A model generated the notes under the pieces. It was not told the DNA's origin. It saw nothing but the letters and a program-made list of their open reading frames with translations, and did not search any database. A stretch of 23,291 nt of DNA from a virus, in the IMG/VR virus record IMGVR_UViG_3300032220_000652, positions 1 to 23,291 of that record. One strand, written 5' to 3'. The first letter of the stretch is position 1, and every line of letters starts with the position of its first letter. The position numbers and the translations under genes are program-made. Below are positions 1,771-23,291 of this stretch, one piece after another.

Positions 1771-4700
1771 ATGGCAACTAATAGTAAAGTTTTTGTTTCA
1801 CCAGGTGTTTATACCTCAGAAGTTGATTTAAGTTTTGTGGCACAAAGTGTCGGAGTAACAACTTTGGGTATCGTGGGAGAAACGTTAATTGGTCCAGCAT
1901 TTGAACCAATTTTTATCACAAATTTTAACGAATTCCAAACGGTCTTCGGTGGAACATCACCAGAAAAATTTATAAACACACAAATCCCTAAATATGAGGC
2001 GTCTTATATCGCCAAAGCATATTTACAACAATCAAACCAACTATTTGTAACAAGAATATTAGGTTTATCGGGATATGATGCGGGTCCGTCTTGGTCTGTA
2101 ACAACTGTTGCAAATGTTGATCCGTCAACAATTGATGTTTGGTGTTTAAGTTCTGTTACTTTGACAGCAACTTGTGAAACAGTATGTGTTGAACCAAGAC
2201 AAGAAATATATTCAATTCCGTTTACCGGATGTAATAATGATATCTCAACAATATCATATCTTTCTTCATTCCCGGAAGAGATTCAATCTATATTATATCA
2301 ACAATATGAACAATTTAACGGAGGAACATCAACATTAGATGATGATATTAATAGTTTAATTTTTGATGTAATTACAAGTTCAAACCCATATACCGCAGAA
2401 GATAGATTTATTTCTTATTTTGGTTCAATTGCAACTAACGATTATAACACTTTAACTAACGCTGGTTGGTCAGCATCTACAAATGTATTTGGTGTTCCGT
2501 CTGTTTCGGTTGACGATACAAATCTTGAATCACCACTTAACGACTCTTGGTATTATGCATTATTTAATACAACCGGAAATACAAACTATAGTGGATTTTC
2601 ATTTTCCGCATTTGTTTCTGGTTTAACATTAAATCCGGTAACTACAACGACCACAATTTTACCAACAACTACAACTACAACAACTAGTCCTTGTGTAACC
2701 CCTGTTCCAACAACATCAACCACTACAACAACGACTTTACCATTAAACTGTTATACAGGTAATTTAATATTAAAACTTTATTATTATACCGGCACCTCAT
2801 TCTCAAATTACGACAACATTGTTGTTGGCACACTAAGATCAAGAGGTATTGCAACATATTCAACATCAGAAAATCCGGCTTATTCTGTAACAGGAACTTC
2901 AGAGGTTACTTTAAATATGACAGGTCAATACTCTAACGTTCTTAAGAATCCATACGCAACTTTTGGTGTGAATGTTGTTGACAAATTCGGAACACTTTAT
3001 TTCTTTGAAACTTCTTTCACTCAAAATGATCCGGAATATTGGAGTAAAGTTTTTGGTGTAACTAATTTTCAAAAACCAAGAATTGAAGTTCCGGTTTTTG
3101 CTGAAGAAAATTTCCAATCATGGTTAAACTTTGGTTGGAGAAAAGGTTACATTAAAGGTCTTAATCCAAACCTAATTGCTCTTGATTCTGCTCAAAGTGG
3201 TGATCCTAACTCAATTGGTTGGTATTTGGATAAATGGCAAACACCATATTCACCATTTGTTGTTTCTGAATTAAGAGGTAATAAAGTTTATGACTTATTT
3301 AGATTTTACACTATATCCGATGGTGATGCCGCAAACACTCTTATTAAAGTTTCAATTACTAATCAAACATTTAATAATTTAACATTTGATTTGTTGGTTC
3401 GTGATTATTTTGACACTGATGCGAATCCTGTTGTTTTAGAAAAGTTTACAAACTGTGCGATGGATCCAGGACAAAATAACTATGTTGCAAATAAGGTTGG
3501 TACTTTAGATGGCGAATACGCACTAAATTCAAAATATATTATGGTTGAAATGTCTGAAGATGCACCAATTGATGCTCTTCCTTGTGGATTTAACGGGTTT
3601 AATTTTAGAAACTACGCAGGAGCACAATCACCATTCCCTATAATTAAAGGTAAATACGATTTTCCTGGTGAAGTTATTTATAATCCTCCATTTGGTTTAT
3701 CTTCAGGAAACGACGATGCTTTGGTTAGTTCAGGTGATAACGTTAGAAGAACTTACTTAGGTATGTCTAATTCTTATGGTTGGGATCCTGCATTCTTTGA
3801 ATATTATGGTAAAAGAAACCCTGTTAACTCTTGTGATATTGATGGATTACCTTTTAATTACAGATCAGCTGGTTTCCACATGGATGTAAATGCAAGTGGA
3901 TTAACAATAGGACCTGAGTTTTCAACAAGTGGTGGACAAAGATTTATTTGTGGTAACTCACCATTTATAACAGATCCTGAATTACCAACAAACGCATATT
4001 ATAGACTGTTCGCTCGTAAATTCACATTCTTATTTCAAGGTGGTTTTGACGGATGGGACATCTATAGGGAATATAGAACTAACGAAGATAGATTCCAAAT
4101 TGGTAGAGCTGGATTTTTAAGGGGAGCATGTCCAACATCGAGATATCCTAACGCATCAGGATGGGGAGCATTTAAAGAAATTTCTCTTGGAGATGGAACT
4201 CAAAATTTTGCAAATACCGACTACTACGCATACTTGTTGGGTCAACAAACATTTGCTAATCCAGAATCAACTAATATTAATGTATTTGTAACACCTGGTA
4301 TTGATTATGTTAATAACAGTAATTTGGTTGAAGATGCTGTTCAGATGATTGAATTCAATAGAGCTGACTCATTATATATTTGTACAACCCCTGACTACGA
4401 TCTTTACTTACCAACAACTACTGGTGGGGACGGATTAATTTATCCAACTGAGGCGGTAGATAATTTAGATAACACAGGAATTGACTCTAACTATACCGCA
4501 ACTTACTATCCGTGGGTATTGACAAGAGACAGCGTAAACAACACACAAATTTATATTCCACCAACGGCTGAAGTTACAAAAAACTTGGCATTAACTGACA
4601 ACATTGCATTCCCTTGGTTTGCGGCGGCAGGTTACACTCGTGGTATTGTTAACTGTATTAAAGCACGTAAGAAGTTAACTCAAGAAGATAGAGACATTCT

Positions 4701-5106
4701 TTATAACGGAAGAATTAACCCAATTGCAACCTTCTCAGATGTAGGAACCGTAATTTGGGGTAATAAAACTCTACAAGTTAGAGAGTCTGCTCTTGATAGA
4801 ATTAACGTTAGAAGATTGTTATTACAAGCACGTAAATTGATTTCAGCGGTATCCGTTAGGTTATTGTTTGAACAAAACGACGCACAAGTAAGACAAGACT
4901 TCTTAAATGCGGTGAATCCAATCTTAGATGCGATTAGAAGAGACAGAGGTCTTTATGACTTTAGAGTAACAGTTTCTAGTGATCCTGAAGATTTAGATAG
5001 AAACCAAATGACCGGTAAGATTTATATTAAGCCTACTAGAGCTTTAGAATTTATAGATATAACCTTCTACATTACTCCAACTGGAGCATCGTTTGAGAAT
5101 ATATAA
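1771..5106 (+). CDS. gp18: Contractile tail sheath protein, gp18-like, enlarged
   Basis: This is the sheath subunit that assembles around the tail tube and contracts to drive the tube into the host. The N-terminus (MATNSKVFVSPGVYTSEVDL, then 'GIVGETLIGPA' and 'TNFNEFQTVFGG') is the classic sheath start. The C-terminal third carries 'FPWFAAAGYTRGI', 'RINPIATFSDVGTVIWGNKT', 'INVRRLLLQARKLISAV' and a final 'IDITFYITPTG', the conserved core that interlocks with neighbouring subunits. At 1111 aa it is much longer than T4 gp18 (659 aa). The extra length lies mainly between about residues 120 and 440 and includes several Cys (around residues 128-155) and a Thr-rich linker (291-325). Conserved sheath sequence seems to resume near residue 450. 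The insert is probably surface-exposed. The ATG is preceded by an A-rich leader, with a TATTTATA element 30 nt upstream and a terminator after the gene. Confidence 0.95.
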   Translation: MATNSKVFVSPGVYTSEVDLSFVAQSVGVTTLGIVGETLIGPAFEPIFITNFNEFQTVFGGTSPEKFINTQIPKYEASYIAKAYLQQSNQLFVTRILGLSGYDAGPSWSVTTVANVDPSTIDVWCLSSVTLTATCETVCVEPRQEIYSIPFTGCNNDISTISYLSSFPEEIQSILYQQYEQFNGGTSTLDDDINSLIFDVITSSNPYTAEDRFISYFGSIATNDYNTLTNAGWSASTNVFGVPSVSVDDTNLESPLNDSWYYALFNTTGNTNYSGFSFSAFVSGLTLNPVTTTTTILPTTTTTTTSPCVTPVPTTSTTTTTTLPLNCYTGNLILKLYYYTGTSFSNYDNIVVGTLRSRGIATYSTSENPAYSVTGTSEVTLNMTGQYSNVLKNPYATFGVNVVDKFGTLYFFETSFTQNDPEYWSKVFGVTNFQKPRIEVPVFAEENFQSWLNFGWRKGYIKGLNPNLIALDSAQSGDPNSIGWYLDKWQTPYSPFVVSELRGNKVYDLFRFYTISDGDAANTLIKVSITNQTFNNLTFDLLVRDYFDTDANPVVLEKFTNCAMDPGQNNYVANKVGTLDGEYALNSKYIMVEMSEDAPIDALPCGFNGFNFRNYAGAQSPFPIIKGKYDFPGEVIYNPPFGLSSGNDDALVSSGDNVRRTYLGMSNSYGWDPAFFEYYGKRNPVNSCDIDGLPFNYRSAGFHMDVNASGLTIGPEFSTSGGQRFICGNSPFITDPELPTNAYYRLFARKFTFLFQGGFDGWDIYREYRTNEDRFQIGRAGFLRGACPTSRYPNASGWGAFKEISLGDGTQNFANTDYYAYLLGQQTFANPESTNINVFVTPGIDYVNNSNLVEDAVQMIEFNRADSLYICTTPDYDLYLPTTTGGDGLIYPTEAVDNLDNTGIDSNYTATYYPWVLTRDSVNNTQIYIPPTAEVTKNLALTDNIAFPWFAAAGYTRGIVNCIKARKKLTQEDRDILYNGRINPIATFSDVGTVIWGNKTLQVRESALDRINVRRLLLQARKLISAVSVRLLFEQNDAQVRQDFLNAVNPILDAIRRDRGLYDFRVTVSSDPEDLDRNQMTGKIYIKPTRALEFIDITFYITPTGASFENI
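2641..2745 (+). repeat. Thr-rich low-complexity linker inside the sheath gene
   Basis: The DNA is dominated by ACA/ACT/ACC codons and encodes three Thr runs broken by Pro, with single Cys residues (residues about 291-325 of the sheath). It separates two parts of the sheath insertion and looks like a flexible, exposed linker. A 19-nt stretch at 2637-2655 is matched at 18 of 19 positions in the hub gene at 20767-20785. Confidence 0.8.
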
Positions 5107-5132: not shown

Positions 5133-5160
5133 AAAGGGGTATCGAAAGTTCCCCTTTTTT
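5133..5160 (+). terminator. Rho-independent terminator after the sheath gene
   Basis: Stem AAAGGGG (5133-5139) pairs with CCCCTTT (5151-5157) across an 11-nt loop and runs into a T tract (5155-5160). It lies 26 nt after the sheath stop, so the sheath mRNA probably ends here. The following HAD gene would then need its own promoter or read-through. Confidence 0.8.
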
Positions 5161-5171
5161 GTTAAACAAAC

Positions 5172-5179
5172 TATTTATT
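5172..5179 (+). promoter_or_regulatory. TATTTATT element just upstream of the HAD gene
   Basis: This is a one-mismatch copy of the TATTTATA octamer, lying between the sheath terminator and the ATG at 5183. The spacing to the ATG (3 nt) is too short for a normal leader. Either it is not a promoter here, or translation starts further downstream. Confidence 0.25.
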
Positions 5180-5182
5180 ATT

Positions 5183-6013
5183 ATGAATTATAAAAATACG
5201 GTAAGAGAAATCATTAGTGAGATTATTCACGATCAGATGACCCCTACTATGAAGTATTACGCTTTTGACTGGGATGACAATCTAATGTATATGCCAACCA
5301 AAATATATTTAAAGGATGATAAGGGAAATTCTGTTGGTATGTCTACCGAAGATTTTGCAGAATATAGAACTAAGATTGGTGAAAAACCTTTTAAATATGA
5401 AGGACATACTATAGTTGACTTTGATGAGAATTCTTTTAAGAACTTCAGAGTTCCTGGAGATAAGTTATTTATGAAAGATTCTATGACGGCTGAAACAGGT
5501 CCTGCTTGGTCTGATTTTGTTGAGGCGGTTAATAACGGGTCAATTTTTGCAATCGTTACAGCAAGGGGACATACCCCATCTGTTATCAGAAATTCCATTT
5601 ATAATTTAATAAAACAAAACAAAAACGGAATATCTTCAAGTGAGTTAGTTAAAAATCTTAAAAAATATAGAGAATTATCAGATGAGGATGATTTATCCAA
5701 TGATGAACTAATAAAAACATATTTGGATATGTGTAAATATTATCCTGTTACTTTTGGTGAGGGTTCAGCTGCGAATCCAGAAGAATTAAAAGTTAAATAT
5801 ATGAAAGAATTTATGACATATGTTAAACAAATGTCCCAACAACTACAAGAGAAAGCTTTTATGAAGAATAAAATAAGTAATTATTTTAACCCTTTTATTG
5901 GTTTTTCAGATGATGACATAAGAAATGTGAATACAATGAGAAAAAATTTTCCAAATAAAGATGAATTAAAGATTTATGCTACATCTAAAAAAGGAAAAGA
6001 AGAATATGAATAA
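5183..6013 (+). CDS. HAD-superfamily hydrolase (probable phosphatase)
   Basis: This 276-aa protein, counted from ATG 5183, shows the HAD catalytic motifs in order: motif I 'FDWDDN' with candidate nucleophile Asp29 and acid/base Asp31, motif II 'IVTARG' with Thr126, and motif IV 'GFSDDD' with Asp243-Asp245 for Mg binding. Residues about 45-110 between motifs I and II would form a cap. A helical, charged insert follows motif II. The substrate cannot be read from sequence; phage HAD proteins include nucleotide phosphatases and 3'-phosphatases. A TTG at 5159 gives a longer frame but lies inside the terminator T tract, so ATG 5183 is preferred. The N-terminal segment before motif I (NTVREIISEIIHDQ) is a short amphipathic helix. 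The gene interrupts the sheath-tube pair, which are adjacent in T4, so its link with tail assembly is unclear. Confidence 0.8.
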   Translation: MNYKNTVREIISEIIHDQMTPTMKYYAFDWDDNLMYMPTKIYLKDDKGNSVGMSTEDFAEYRTKIGEKPFKYEGHTIVDFDENSFKNFRVPGDKLFMKDSMTAETGPAWSDFVEAVNNGSIFAIVTARGHTPSVIRNSIYNLIKQNKNGISSSELVKNLKKYRELSDEDDLSNDELIKTYLDMCKYYPVTFGEGSAANPEELKVKYMKEFMTYVKQMSQQLQEKAFMKNKISNYFNPFIGFSDDDIRNVNTMRKNFPNKDELKIYATSKKGKEEYE

Positions 6014-6131: not shown

Positions 6132-6620
6132 ATGGCTGATTTACTAATGAAAATGCCGATACCCTACGAACCGAAAAGGGAAAACCGATGGATCTTAAGA
6201 TTTCCTTCGTCACTTGGAATAAATGAGTGGTATGTAGAGTCCACGGCAAGACCTGCTCTTACAATTGCCTCAACACCAATTCCTTTCTTAAATACGGAAA
6301 CATACGTGGCTGGTAGATTTACTTGGGGAGAATTAGCGGTAACTTTTAGAGACCCTATTGGTCCATCAGCATCACAGGCATTAATGGAGTGGATTCGTTT
6401 ATGTGCTGAATCTGTAACAGGACGAATGGGATATGCTGCTGGTTACAAAAAAAATATTGACCTTGAGATGTTAGACCCAACAGGGGTTGTTGTTGAAAAA
6501 TGGATTTTAGAGGGAGCTTTTTTATTAAAATATGATGGTGGACAATTAACATACGCCAGTGATGGTTTAGCTAAAGTAACAAGTTCTATAAGAATGGATC
6601 GTTGCATATTAGTATATTAA
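6132..6620 (+). CDS. gp19: Tail tube protein, T4 gp19-like
   Basis: This 162-aa protein is nearly identical in length to T4 gp19 (163 aa). It forms stacked hexameric rings of the inner tail tube through which DNA passes. Diagnostic stretches are 'NRWILRFPSSLGINEW', 'ARPALTI', 'FTWGELAVTFRDPIGPSASQ' and 'ALMEWIRLCAESVTGRMGYA', followed by 'YKKNIDLEMLDPTGVVVEKW', all conserved in gp19 proteins of T4-like phages. No insert or truncation is seen. The leader AAAAAAGAAATT before ATG is A-rich, without Shine-Dalgarno. A terminator follows, so the gene may be a single, abundantly transcribed unit like the sheath gene. Confidence 0.95.
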   Translation: MADLLMKMPIPYEPKRENRWILRFPSSLGINEWYVESTARPALTIASTPIPFLNTETYVAGRFTWGELAVTFRDPIGPSASQALMEWIRLCAESVTGRMGYAAGYKKNIDLEMLDPTGVVVEKWILEGAFLLKYDGGQLTYASDGLAKVTSSIRMDRCILVY

Positions 6621-6642
6621 TTTTTTAATAAACAATATTATT

Positions 6643-6679
6643 AATTCCTATATGTTTTTATGTGTAGGAATTTTTTTTT
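6643..6679 (+). terminator. Rho-independent terminator after the tail tube gene
   Basis: AATTCCTA (6643-6650) pairs with TAGGAATT (6665-6672) across a 14-nt loop, and a run of nine T follows (6671-6679). It lies 22 nt past the tube stop and separates the tube from the chaperone/tape-measure cluster. Confidence 0.8.
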
Positions 6680-6749
6680 GTAAACGTTATGTAATTGTTT
6701 TAATCTTTACAAAAAAACATATGTTAATTATGTTTAAATTAAAAAAAAT

Positions 6750-7520
6750 ATGGAACAAAATTCTTACACGGCAGGACAAGCCGATTTCAATTTACCACAC
6801 GATGTTATAACACTACCTTCTGGAGGGATCTTTTATAAATCTAAAAAGAAAACCATTAAAGTTGGTTATTTAACTGCGTTTGATGAAAACATAATTGCCG
6901 AAGCTGACTATAAACAAAGTATTCAAGAAAGTATAGTTCTTCCTTTGCTTAGGAATAAAATTTATGAAAAAGATTTAAGACCTGAAGAATTAGTTGACGG
7001 AGACGTTGAAGCAATACTTTTATTTTTAAGAAATACGTCTTTTGGTCCCGAATATCCAATAACCGTAAATGACCCGAATACAGATAAAAAATTCACATCA
7101 ACAATTTTGTTGGACGAATTAAATATTAAAAAAACAAAAAATATTCCAGATGATGAAGGTTTGTTTGAAACAACTCTTCCTGTGTCTAAAAAACACGTTA
7201 AATTAAAGATTTTAAATATCTCTGATAAAATTAAAATAGAAACAATTTTAAAATCATATCCTAATGATAGAACAGCACCATCAATAACAACAAAATTATC
7301 TTTAATTATTGTATCTATTGATGGTAATACAGACAAGGGACATATAGCAACATTTATTCAACAAATGCCAATTGCCGATTCTAAATATGTTAGAAGATTT
7401 ATAGCCGAAAACGAACCAAGATTAGACTTATCAAAAGAAATTATCGCCCCGTCTGGAGAAAAAGTAATGATCGACATTACTTTTGGGGTGGAATTTTTTC
7501 GGCCTTTCATATCAGTATAA
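6750..7520 (+). CDS. Baseplate hub / tail assembly chaperone, T4 gp26-like
   Basis: This 256-aa cytoplasmic-type protein has features of the T4 gp26 baseplate-protein family: 'ITLPSGGIFY' near residue 20, then 'VGYLTAFDENIIAEADY', 'VLPLLRNKI', 'ELVDGDVEAILLFLRNTSFG' and a C-terminal 'ITFGVEFFRPF' that resembles the usual '..G..FFWP' end. T4 gp26 is 208 aa. Related proteins act in hub and tail assembly and need not be in the virion. It stands immediately before the candidate tape measure gene, the position of lambda G/GT-type chaperones. Near the 3' end, GAA TTT TTT CGG offers a +1 slip (UUU to UUC next to an Arg codon, CGG, that appears uncommon here) into a 51-codon frame ending at 7656. An ATG-leader AAATTAAAAAAAAT precedes the start. 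Confidence 0.75.
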   Translation: MEQNSYTAGQADFNLPHDVITLPSGGIFYKSKKKTIKVGYLTAFDENIIAEADYKQSIQESIVLPLLRNKIYEKDLRPEELVDGDVEAILLFLRNTSFGPEYPITVNDPNTDKKFTSTILLDELNIKKTKNIPDDEGLFETTLPVSKKHVKLKILNISDKIKIETILKSYPNDRTAPSITTKLSLIIVSIDGNTDKGHIATFIQQMPIADSKYVRRFIAENEPRLDLSKEIIAPSGEKVMIDITFGVEFFRPFISV

Positions 7521-7656
7521 GACAATAATAATTGACGAATTTTATTATTTTTCAAGAATATTTAGAACCCAATATTCTGAGTTTATTAATATGCCAACTT
7601 ATGTAAGAAAATATTTGATCAATAAATATGTTGAGGATAATAAAAAAACACAATAA
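7501..7656 (+). CDS. Putative +1 frameshift extension of the chaperone gene (51 codons)
   Basis: In the +1 frame, an open stretch runs from 7471 (after a TGA at 7468-7470) to TAA at 7654-7656. If ribosomes slip at TTT-C (7497-7500), the product is 250 aa of chaperone plus 51 aa, 301 aa in total. The extension reads 'IIIDEFYYFSRIF' then 'YSEFINMPTYVRKYLINKYV', the pattern 'helix-YSE-x-hh-MP-xY-x-R-x(4)-KhhE' that I associate with short chaperone or T-extension partners before tape measure genes. The only ATG in this frame (7591) would give just 21 aa and would cut the motif, and a TTG at 7483 is the only other common start, so frameshifting is preferred. A stand-alone small gene or a sequencing indel are the alternatives. 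No Shine-Dalgarno or A-rich leader is seen for a separate start. Confidence 0.6.
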   Translation, partial: GLSYQYKTIIIDEFYYFSRIFRTQYSEFINMPTYVRKYLINKYVEDNKKTQ

Positions 7657-7681: not shown

Positions 7682-9433
7682 ATGGGATTTTTTTTTCAGA
7701 TAACTGGTCCTACCGGTATTCCATTGGCTAATGAAGGTTTAGGGGGAACATCCGCTGATTTTGATAAAAACGCATATACTTTAAATGTTGGCGCTATCAG
7801 TGCAAAAATTGACGAACAATTTCAAGGATTACTTAAAGCTATTAATCCGTTAGACACCGATATTTTTGCAGAGTTAGAAGGATATGCAAACAGTGTTCAA
7901 ACTGCCTTTGGTTTATCTAAAGAAAGAGTTGACGAGTTTAAAACTACTATTGCTGACGCAGCACCTGAATTAGCCAAATTAGGTCTTCAAGACGCCGACA
8001 TCTCCAACAATTTAATATCAATTATGCAAGGTCTTGGAGGAGCCGCCAGTGTTAGTAAAGAGGCCATTGTGGAATTAAGTGCCGCGGCAAAACTTACTGG
8101 TCAAGACGTTGGTACGTTAACAACTAACTTTAGAGATGTTGGAATTTCTGTTTATGATGTTGGGGAACAAATGAAAACTGTTACTGAGGTTGCGAGATCG
8201 GCCGGAGTTTCAGTTAATAAAGTTTCAGGTCAAGTAATGACCAATTTAGAAAAAATGAATCTTTTTAATTTTGAAAACGGAGTTAAAGGATTGGCCAAAA
8301 TGGCGGCACAAGCAGAAAGACTTGGAATTAATATGGCGAAGGTATTTGCTCAAACAGAAAAAGTTATGAATCCAGAAGGAGCAATTGATATGTCAGCAGC
8401 ACTACAACGATTAGGTGTGACATCAAGTGGCTTATTAGACCCTTTAAGGGCAATGGATATGTCTCAAAACGACCCTGAACAATTTCAAAAAGAAATGGTA
8501 AATCTTGGTAAAGAATTTACACGTTTTAATGAAAAAACAGGACAGACGGAAATTCTTCCTGGAGCTAAAAGAAGAATGAAAGAAGTCGCAGAGGCTGTTG
8601 GAATGACCGCAGAAGAATTTTCAAAAATGGCAATTAAAAGTTCCGACTTTGAAATGAAACTTAAACAAATTAAAATGCCATCTTTAAGTGTTGATGATGA
8701 CGAAACTAAAGAAATGATTGCTACAATGGCACAAATGAAAGATGGGGTCGCAACAATCCAAGTTAGAGATAAAGAAACCGGAATAACAACGGAAAAAAAG
8801 GTAGAAGAGTTAACACCTGAAGATATTGAAAATTTAAAAAAGGCAAATGAAGATTCCTCAAAAACCATTGAGGAGTTGGCGTTCAATCAATTAGACGTTA
8901 CTACTCAAATTAAAAATTTATTATCAACAGGTGAGGTGGCCGCAAAATTTGCAAAAGCAACAACCCCAACACTAAGTAAATTTTATGGTTTAGTTGCCGA
9001 CAGTAAATTAGAAATTGCAAAAGCTTCAGATAATATTTTTGGGTCAACCGAAGATATGAGAACGGCAATTGGAGACTTATCAAAACCAGTTGAGGGAATT
9101 ATAAAAGGAAAAATAACTGGCGATGATAAAATGGTGAATACAGAAATAGGTAACTTAGAAACAAATATTTTAAAAACTTTTAGTGACTTTACTGGTAAGT
9201 TTTCAACAGAGGTAAATTCCGTTCAAGAAAAACTAATTGAAAATGTTAAAACCGCTTACTCAGAACCAATAAAAATTGAGGGTAAGACAGATAGCAATTT
9301 AAATATTAATGTTAAGGTAACTGATAATGGGGGTAATTTGATTGATGATGCTAAACTAAAACGATCTTTGTTAGACGACCCTAATTTTATTAGTGATGTT
9401 AAAACTAAAATATCTGGAGTAGCCGCACCATAA
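7682..9433 (+). CDS. Candidate tail tape measure protein
   Basis: This 583-aa protein is almost the length of T4 gp29 (590 aa), the tape measure/hub protein that fixes tail length. It is mainly helical and Ala/Lys/Glu-rich: 'AAAKLTGQDVGTLTTNF', 'VTEVARSAGVSVNKVSG', 'LAKMAAQAERLGINMAKVF' and 'AEAVGMTAEEFSKMA' resemble tape measure segments of the TP901 type (repeated 'hA..AG.S...h' helices). It has an acidic C-terminal third and no clear membrane segment. Position directly after a gp26-like chaperone with a frameshift extension is the typical tape measure position. At about 0.15 nm per residue the tail would be roughly 85-90 nm. Codons 3-5 lie in a run of nine T (7688-7696), a potential slippage or sequencing-error site right after the start. 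Confidence 0.72.
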   Translation: MGFFFQITGPTGIPLANEGLGGTSADFDKNAYTLNVGAISAKIDEQFQGLLKAINPLDTDIFAELEGYANSVQTAFGLSKERVDEFKTTIADAAPELAKLGLQDADISNNLISIMQGLGGAASVSKEAIVELSAAAKLTGQDVGTLTTNFRDVGISVYDVGEQMKTVTEVARSAGVSVNKVSGQVMTNLEKMNLFNFENGVKGLAKMAAQAERLGINMAKVFAQTEKVMNPEGAIDMSAALQRLGVTSSGLLDPLRAMDMSQNDPEQFQKEMVNLGKEFTRFNEKTGQTEILPGAKRRMKEVAEAVGMTAEEFSKMAIKSSDFEMKLKQIKMPSLSVDDDETKEMIATMAQMKDGVATIQVRDKETGITTEKKVEELTPEDIENLKKANEDSSKTIEELAFNQLDVTTQIKNLLSTGEVAAKFAKATTPTLSKFYGLVADSKLEIAKASDNIFGSTEDMRTAIGDLSKPVEGIIKGKITGDDKMVNTEIGNLETNILKTFSDFTGKFSTEVNSVQEKLIENVKTAYSEPIKIEGKTDSNLNINVKVTDNGGNLIDDAKLKRSLLDDPNFISDVKTKISGVAAP

Positions 9434-23011: not shown

Positions 23012-23291
23012 ATGAGAATAGATGAAAAAATATTAAATGAAATTGCTAGATACAATTCAATTAATCGATATATTACTGAACAAGATGTTCCCCCAGCAGA
23101 TCCCGCTGCGGCAGGAGCACCCCCACCACCATTAGATCCCGCTGCGGCAGGAGCACCACCACCCCCAGCAGATCCCGCTGCGGCAGGAGCACCAGCTCCA
23201 CCAACACCTGTTGATGTTGCTGCGGACCCTGATGTTGAAGAAGTTGGAGGAGAAGAAGGTGAAGGTGAAGAAGGTGTTGAAGAACTTGATA
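23012..23291 (+). CDS. Pro/Ala-repeat, acidic protein, 3' end outside window
   Basis: The frame runs from ATG 23012 to the window edge (93 full codons). The N-terminus MRIDEKILNEIARYNSINRY, followed by ITEQD, is an amphipathic helix. Three copies of a 12-residue DPAAAGAPPPPx unit follow, then a highly acidic tail (DPDVEEVGGEEGEGEEGVEE). This is a disordered linker or spacer between an N-terminal helix and whatever follows. The helix-plus-'EQ' start resembles short N-terminal segments seen on several phage virion proteins (possibly a capsid-targeting or pro-sequence); this is only a guess. The GC-rich repeat contrasts with the AT-rich surroundings. The ATG follows the previous TAG by 1 nt. Confidence 0.7.
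   Translation, partial: MRIDEKILNEIARYNSINRYITEQDVPPADPAAAGAPPPPLDPAAAGAPPPPADPAAAGAPAPPTPVDVAADPDVEEVGGEEGEGEEGVEELD
23099..23206 (+). repeat. GC-rich 36-bp in-frame tandem repeat, 3 copies
   Basis: Units at 23099-23134, 23135-23170 and 23171-23206 share an identical core of 22 nt beginning GATCCCGCTGCGGCAGGAG. The last ~14 nt of each unit differ only in Pro/Ala codons. Each encodes DPAAAGAPxPPx. Exact 36-bp periodicity and identical cores point to recent expansion by slippage or unequal crossing-over. Confidence 0.9.

Follow-up and report, generated by a model that had tools for sequence, protein, structure and literature searches.

Phage lambda makes two proteins from one gene, which has the major tail protein gene on one side and the tape measure gene on the other: a short product, gpG, and a low-level frameshift product, gpGT, which carries a C-terminal extension; a start of its own is needed by neither part. 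A review of the G-T chaperones describes such frameshifting as widely conserved, with T4 excepted (PMC5009743). SPP1 uses a -1 shift at UUUUUUC for its chaperones 17.5 and 17.5*, and a +1 shift is very likely in the tail chaperone gene of the archaeal myovirus HSTV-2 (PMC5009743). Another +1 site, UCC_UUU_CGU, serves the PA-X protein of influenza A virus, with UUU_C in the P site and CGN in the A site, at very low efficiency and with no evident stimulator (PMC5009743). UUU_C followed by CGN is the PA-X type of site, and its authors foresaw a wider class (PMC3498833). T4 itself has two separate genes, 26 and 51. Cyanophages and vibriophages also have a gp26 and a gp51, but their gp51 lacks the first 200 residues of the T4 protein (Sullivan et al. 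2010, PMC3037559); its short length was noted there and left unexplained. In the open literature that we searched (subscription papers and preprints lay outside the search), there was no report of frameshifting in the family of T4 gp26, PF12322.

We analyzed a member of this family in a viral contig of 23,291 nucleotides, IMG/VR record IMGVR_UViG_3300032220_000652 (the window), for which an initial annotation had proposed a +1 ribosomal frameshift. The gene resembles lambda G/GT in its place, in its design of a short and a predicted long product and in needing no separate start for either part, but differs in the direction of the shift (+1, at UUU_UUU_CGN), in having a hairpin 5' of the site and in belonging to PF12322. 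With T4 gp26 and gp51 it shares this Pfam family over the whole profile, and the tail of gp51 resembles the cyanophage extension; unlike T4, which has two separate genes and no slip site, the window would combine one gene with a frameshift. In cyanophages and vibriophages an extension is found at the same place behind U_UUU_UUC, yet in the -1 frame, and it is annotated in cyanophages as a separate gp51 of 57 amino acids. SPP1 has the slip sequence UUUUUUC in its tail chaperone gene as well, though it is a siphovirus with a -1 shift and a chaperone of a different family, whereas HSTV-2 very likely shares the +1 direction but belongs to a different phage group. The P-site UUU_C, the A-site CGN and the +1 shift are all found in PA-X, which comes from a eukaryotic virus; since the two genes are unrelated, the shared site is convergent.

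The features of the locus are as follows.

6132 to 6620, plus strand: tail tube gene (gp19-like), the upstream neighbour (PHROG_4542 tail tube, E = 4e-19)
6750 to 7520, plus strand: gp26-like gene, short product of 256 amino acids read in frame 0 (Pfam, PHROG and AlphaFold matches)
7483 to 7485, plus strand: +1-frame TTG, discarded as a start codon
7494 to 7502, plus strand: predicted +1 slippery site UUU_UUU_CGG, TTTTTTCGG (P-site UUU to UUC, CGG in the A site)
7501 to 7656, plus strand: +1 frame extension, 51 codons (7501 to 7653) and a stop (7654 to 7656), reached only via the slip
7518 to 7520, plus strand: frame 0 stop, 15 nt past the CGG codon
6750 to 7656, plus strand: predicted long product of 301 amino acids (6750 to 7499 joined to 7501 to 7653)
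7682 to 9433, plus strand: next gene, at the tape measure position as in immuto and LIS04

The gp26-like gene is a member of the T4 gp26 family. It matched Pfam T4_baseplate PF12322 with E = 1.2e-6 (28.9 bits, above the curated cut-off, which is 24.5; the match covers positions 10-217 in a profile of 219) and PHROG_150 baseplate hub with E = 1.8e-11, and the AlphaFold model of its short form resembles T4-like baseplate hub subunits. The gene sits between the tube gene and the tape measure position, as do chaperones of the G/GT type. The gene at 7682 to 9433 had no significant family match in Pfam or PHROGs; in immuto and LIS04, the gene at this place carries a tape measure annotation. Upstream, a tail sheath gene (1771-5106) encodes 1,111 amino acids, roughly double what is usual, with linkers rich in threonine (PTTTTTTTSP), and sheath families match its C-terminal part only. 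A 284-aa protein encoded at 5159-6013, between the sheath and tube genes, has a DWDDNL motif reminiscent of HAD-type phosphatases and no significant family match. Elsewhere in the window, a short ORF of 54 amino acids with a ribbon-helix-helix-like sequence lies on the minus strand (1487-1651) in a gap among the plus-strand structural genes; the +1 frame stays open for 64 codons beyond the stop of the tail tube gene (6620-6810), probably by chance; and Ala/Pro-rich coding repeats (PADPAAAGAPPPP units) occupy the right end of the record (23060-23290). Rfam gave no match in the window, and a search of bacterial genomes for the host found no relative.

The gp26-like frame ends in GAA TTT TTT CGG CCT TTC ATA TCA GTA TAA, as the initial annotation had quoted it, and the open +1 frame of 51 codons is present together with the peptides cited from it. 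The long product was translated by reading TTTC as one Phe step, the single such word within the gene. The features of a UUU_C-type +1 site, namely UUU followed by C and a rare CGG codon in the A site, are present in sequence and codon usage. Among the 214 Arg codons of the window, 161 are AGA, in line with the earlier remark that most are, against 25 AGG, 13 CGT, 13 CGA, 2 CGG and no CGC. A single TTT followed by CGN was found among 7,470 codons. The junction peptide EFFGLSYQ, which had been placed at residues 248-256, occupies 248-255.

Relatives of 58-99% identity were drawn from IMG/VR by patterns neutral as to codon and reduced to a non-redundant set of 113 genes, each less than 95% identical. 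TTTTTTC was kept in all 113, and Arg251 was always a CGN codon (CGG in 87, CGT in 13, CGC in 11 and CGA in 2). The rest of the same genes contains 1,123 Arg codons, and among these CGN made up only 10.3% and CGG 0.3%. At other positions where Phe is invariant, about one gene in five had TTC, and at those where Arg is invariant the codon was mostly AGA; Gly246 was GGG in 111 of 113, and the short frame 0 tail after FFRPF varied. A separate scan, made with every codon spelling of GVEFFRPF and yielding at least 80 loci, gave the same picture: among the 80 matches listed, all had TTTTTTC, CGN and an open +1 extension. Double coding by itself accounts for some of the conservation of CGGCCTTTC. The invariance of TTTTTTC and CGN excludes chance as the origin of the slip site, and what is conserved is UUU_UUU_CGN, any base being allowed at its last position. 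The emphasis that the initial annotation placed on CGG thus holds for the CGN box and not for CGG itself. An indel or assembly error was rejected, because the arrangement is common to more than 100 contigs and several isolates.

We considered the possibility that the extension is a separate small gene that overlaps the end of the gp26-like gene and starts from TTG 7483 or ATG 7590. That TTG, which the initial annotation had passed over in finding no good start codon, lies in the +1 frame 11 nt ahead of the slip run, and its source codon is TTT in 107 of the 113 relatives; moreover, the cyanophage -1 extension has a conserved ATG and is annotated as gene 51. Yet, six relatives have no ATG, GTG or TTG ahead of the extension, five of them because a Val codon spelled GTA creates a +1-frame TAG immediately before the slip run, and all six retain the extension. 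TTG 7483 was therefore rejected as a start: in these six it is either missing or separated from the extension by a stop in the +1 frame, and the extension is reachable only by a frameshift (or from a non-standard start), as judged from their sequences. A separate gene is thereby refuted as a general rule for the clade, so that the absence of a good start, asserted earlier, stands in the relatives even though a TTG exists in the window. Start codons within the extension occur at scattered positions, and a gene with an own start would need neither the invariant TTTTTTC/CGN nor the 5' hairpin. We regard separate initiation as very unlikely. The comparison of homologous junctions that had been proposed as a check showed, for the window's clade, that the site and the extension are kept with no conserved start for a small protein: fusion of the extension in frame to the gp26-like gene was found in none of the 113 relatives, and none had lost the slip site.

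At the site, the Val, Glu and Arg codons vary in their third bases; these changes are silent in frame 0 but alter residues in the +1 frame. This variation, next to an invariant TTTTTTC/CGN, indicates that use of the +1 frame is confined to the sequence past the site. Beyond it, the +1 extension frame is free of stops in 113 of 113 relatives, versus averages of 3.5 and 5.8 stops in the other two frames. Third codon positions of the extension were the most variable (0.55 versus 0.36 and 0.31), and its median pairwise omega was 0.38 (0.56 for low-dS pairs). Both the third-position variation and omega indicate that the extension evolves as a protein. With structures predicted separately for the short form and the extension, the latter was modelled as three helices with a mean pLDDT of 91; a fold search with it gave no significant match, the second match being labelled tail assembly chaperone (E = 0.93).

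Directly upstream of the site, a covariation analysis and a blind helix scan identified an RNA element that, like the link to T4 gp51 described below, goes beyond the initial annotation.

7447 to 7488, plus strand: RNA stem-loop directly 5' of the slip site

Its outer stem pairs CCCC (7447-7450) with GGGG (7485-7488), and its inner stem of ten pairs joins 7460-7469 to 7475-7484 around a loop at 7470-7474. The hairpin was tested on a gapless alignment of 112 sequences, with slid and shuffled controls (500 shuffles): 86.5% of cells were paired, compared with 42-61% when slid, and double-change cells numbered 124, against 48 ± 6 in shuffled alignments and with 0 of 500 reaching the observed value. 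A blind helix search over a stretch that began 60 nt ahead of GGGG and reached about 58 nt beyond the slip run ranked this hairpin first by a wide margin and found no covarying helix downstream of the slip site in the window clade. The bulge at 7451-7459 (GUCUGGAGA) is nearly invariant at synonymous sites; it may act as an internal SD-like AGGAG, present in most relatives, or pair with the U run. In addition, the stretch 25-39 nt ahead of GGGG is frozen at its synonymous sites.

The GGGG strand could itself act as a Shine-Dalgarno sequence: pairing of GGGGUG with the anti-SD amounts to -9.4 kcal/mol, close to the -10.3 of prfB. However, reported +1 stimulators of the Shine-Dalgarno type lie 3 nt from the shift site (PMC5009743), a spacing that GGGG does not share. 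An internal Shine-Dalgarno as the sole role of GGGG was set aside, as GGGG also pairs with an invariant CCCC; the pairing holds throughout the alignment, with a compensatory A-U in one relative, and another relative has an A-A mismatch. We infer that the element raises the shift rate, through refolding behind the ribosome and/or through pairing with rRNA.

More distant relatives showed the same junction with shifts of either direction. In Flavobacterium phage immuto and 79 related contigs the site reads UUU[U/C]U[U/A]UGG, the third codon deviating in a single case, and the continuation in the +1 frame reads FFGLTPEYR or a close variant. An open +1 extension was also found in Mel-JY01, RM378, LR756508, SP-15, LIS04 and GXN1; a scan of viral contigs with an SP-15 profile retrieved nothing beyond SP-15 itself. 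The site of LIS04 is compatible with a slip at the first UUU and that of GXN1 (UUC_UUU_CGU) with the second only; the window is compatible with both, and because the product is the same either way, the two Phe codons are not distinguishable there. By contrast, the canonical heptamer U_UUU_UUC followed by an extension in the -1 frame was present in P-SSM2, in 80 of 80 cyanophage-like contigs and in Bellamy, KVP40, PA5oct, Atu_ph07 and LR756511. LR756511, the 595-kb record of a huge phage, has U UUU UUC and the -1 extension at the homologous place, and the 484-kb record LR756508 has the +1 version, with UUU_CUA. Only in the distant cyanophages does the extension frame contain a conserved ATG, so that separate initiation is possible there. 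In P-SSM2 and cyanophage gene 26, an 8-bp stem can form 12-42 nt from the heptamer's first U in 95% of cells; its position is typical of -1 stimulators and it shows little covariation.

The distant +1 sites also bear on whether the frame changes in the RNA rather than on the ribosome, through RNA polymerase slippage on the run of six U that would leave part of the mRNA one base short. The T6 run is invariant in the window's clade, as this explanation would have it. Yet, the run is missing at the related +1 sites of immuto (TTTCTTTGG), GXN1 (TTCTTTCGT) and LR756508 (TTTCTATTC), which makes transcriptional slippage unlikely; six bases are in any case short for slippage, and the CGN codon after the run is conserved too. 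We consider it even less probable than an own start for the extension. A -2 shift would reach the same frame as a +1 shift, with one extra residue at the junction, but UUU_C lets tRNA-Phe re-pair better at +1 (the argument of PMC3498833), while at -2 it would have to pair with codons that include purines from GAA or GAG; we give this reading almost no credence. A real and programmed +1 frameshift is very likely on the comparative evidence, and the interpretation first offered proves largely right.

The extensions of the different groups can be connected by a chain of profile matches, from the window clade to immuto (E = 2e-11), from immuto to the cyanophages (7e-5) and from the cyanophages to the tail of T4 gp51 (4.5e-5); a direct match of the window extension to T4 gp51 was not significant (E 0.25-0.65). 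Over its full length, PF12322 is matched by T4 gp26 (E = 8.8e-64) as well as by gp51 (E = 3.9e-52), which makes the two proteins paralogues, and gp51 consists of a gp26-like domain followed by a tail of about 50 amino acids. The slip site is absent from T4, which has TTCTTTGAG in gene 26 and TTTAAG in gene 51. By this comparison, the 200 residues missing from the short gp51 proteins would be made up for by a gp26-like domain, gained through frameshifting out of gene 26, and T4 probably replaced the frameshift by a gene duplication (26 and 51). This suggests that T4 is not an exception to frameshifting of the G/GT type, its relatives using a frameshift and gp26/gp51 being the split equivalent.

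We propose that most ribosomes would halt at 7518-7520 and release the 256-aa short form, while in a minority the tRNA-Phe on UUU, with the rare CGG in the A site, would slip forward from UUU to UUC. The slip would be stimulated, probably, by refolding of the hairpin behind the ribosome and/or by GGGG acting as an internal Shine-Dalgarno, and would add 51 residues from the +1 frame to give the 301-aa long form. As with gpG and gpGT of lambda, the tape measure protein would be coated by many copies of the short form and few of the long one, the helical extension helping to recruit the tail tube protein. The conserved site and extension, the lack of a start and the hairpin are established by comparing sequences; the slip itself and its rate, the contribution of the hairpin and the chaperone function are what we infer from them. 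A role as tail assembly chaperone is likely from the position, the family, the short/long design and a weak fold similarity, the top match to a solved fold being the HK97 tail assembly chaperone 2ob9 (probability 0.72; E = 0.38, not significant), with all others below 0.13. Taken as a whole, this model, with two products made by a hairpin-stimulated +1 slip and acting in the manner of G/GT chaperones, appears highly probable.

We also considered that the +1 frame is real but that its products serve baseplate hub assembly instead of coating the tape measure. The T4 hub contains the tape measure protein gp29, so that hub and tail-chaperone roles may be one. The T4 proteins gp26 and gp51 count as chaperones of hub assembly (PMC3004832), and the family is named baseplate hub in both Pfam and PHROG. 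The order of the genes, the design with a short and a long product and the HK97 chaperone as best fold match nevertheless fit the pattern of tail chaperones, and we look upon a purely hub-directed function as possible though rather unlikely.

Coming back to coating of the tape measure by the two forms, we think it probable that the T4 superfamily ancestrally made a short and a long gp26-type tail chaperone by frameshifting, +1 in some lineages and -1 in others; that T4 substituted the duplicated genes 26 and 51; and that the lineage of the window adds a covarying hairpin 5' of its +1 site, which would make an unusual +1 stimulator in bacteria. If this is true, gp51, a poorly understood hub protein, gains a testable role, and a cyanophage gp51 without its first 200 residues is explained (PMC3037559). 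Many phage genome annotations would change as well, their long chaperones having been missed or split. In the lineage, +1 and -1 sites occupy a single homologous junction and form a natural series, and the 5' hairpin provides an opportunity to study forward slipping in bacteria.
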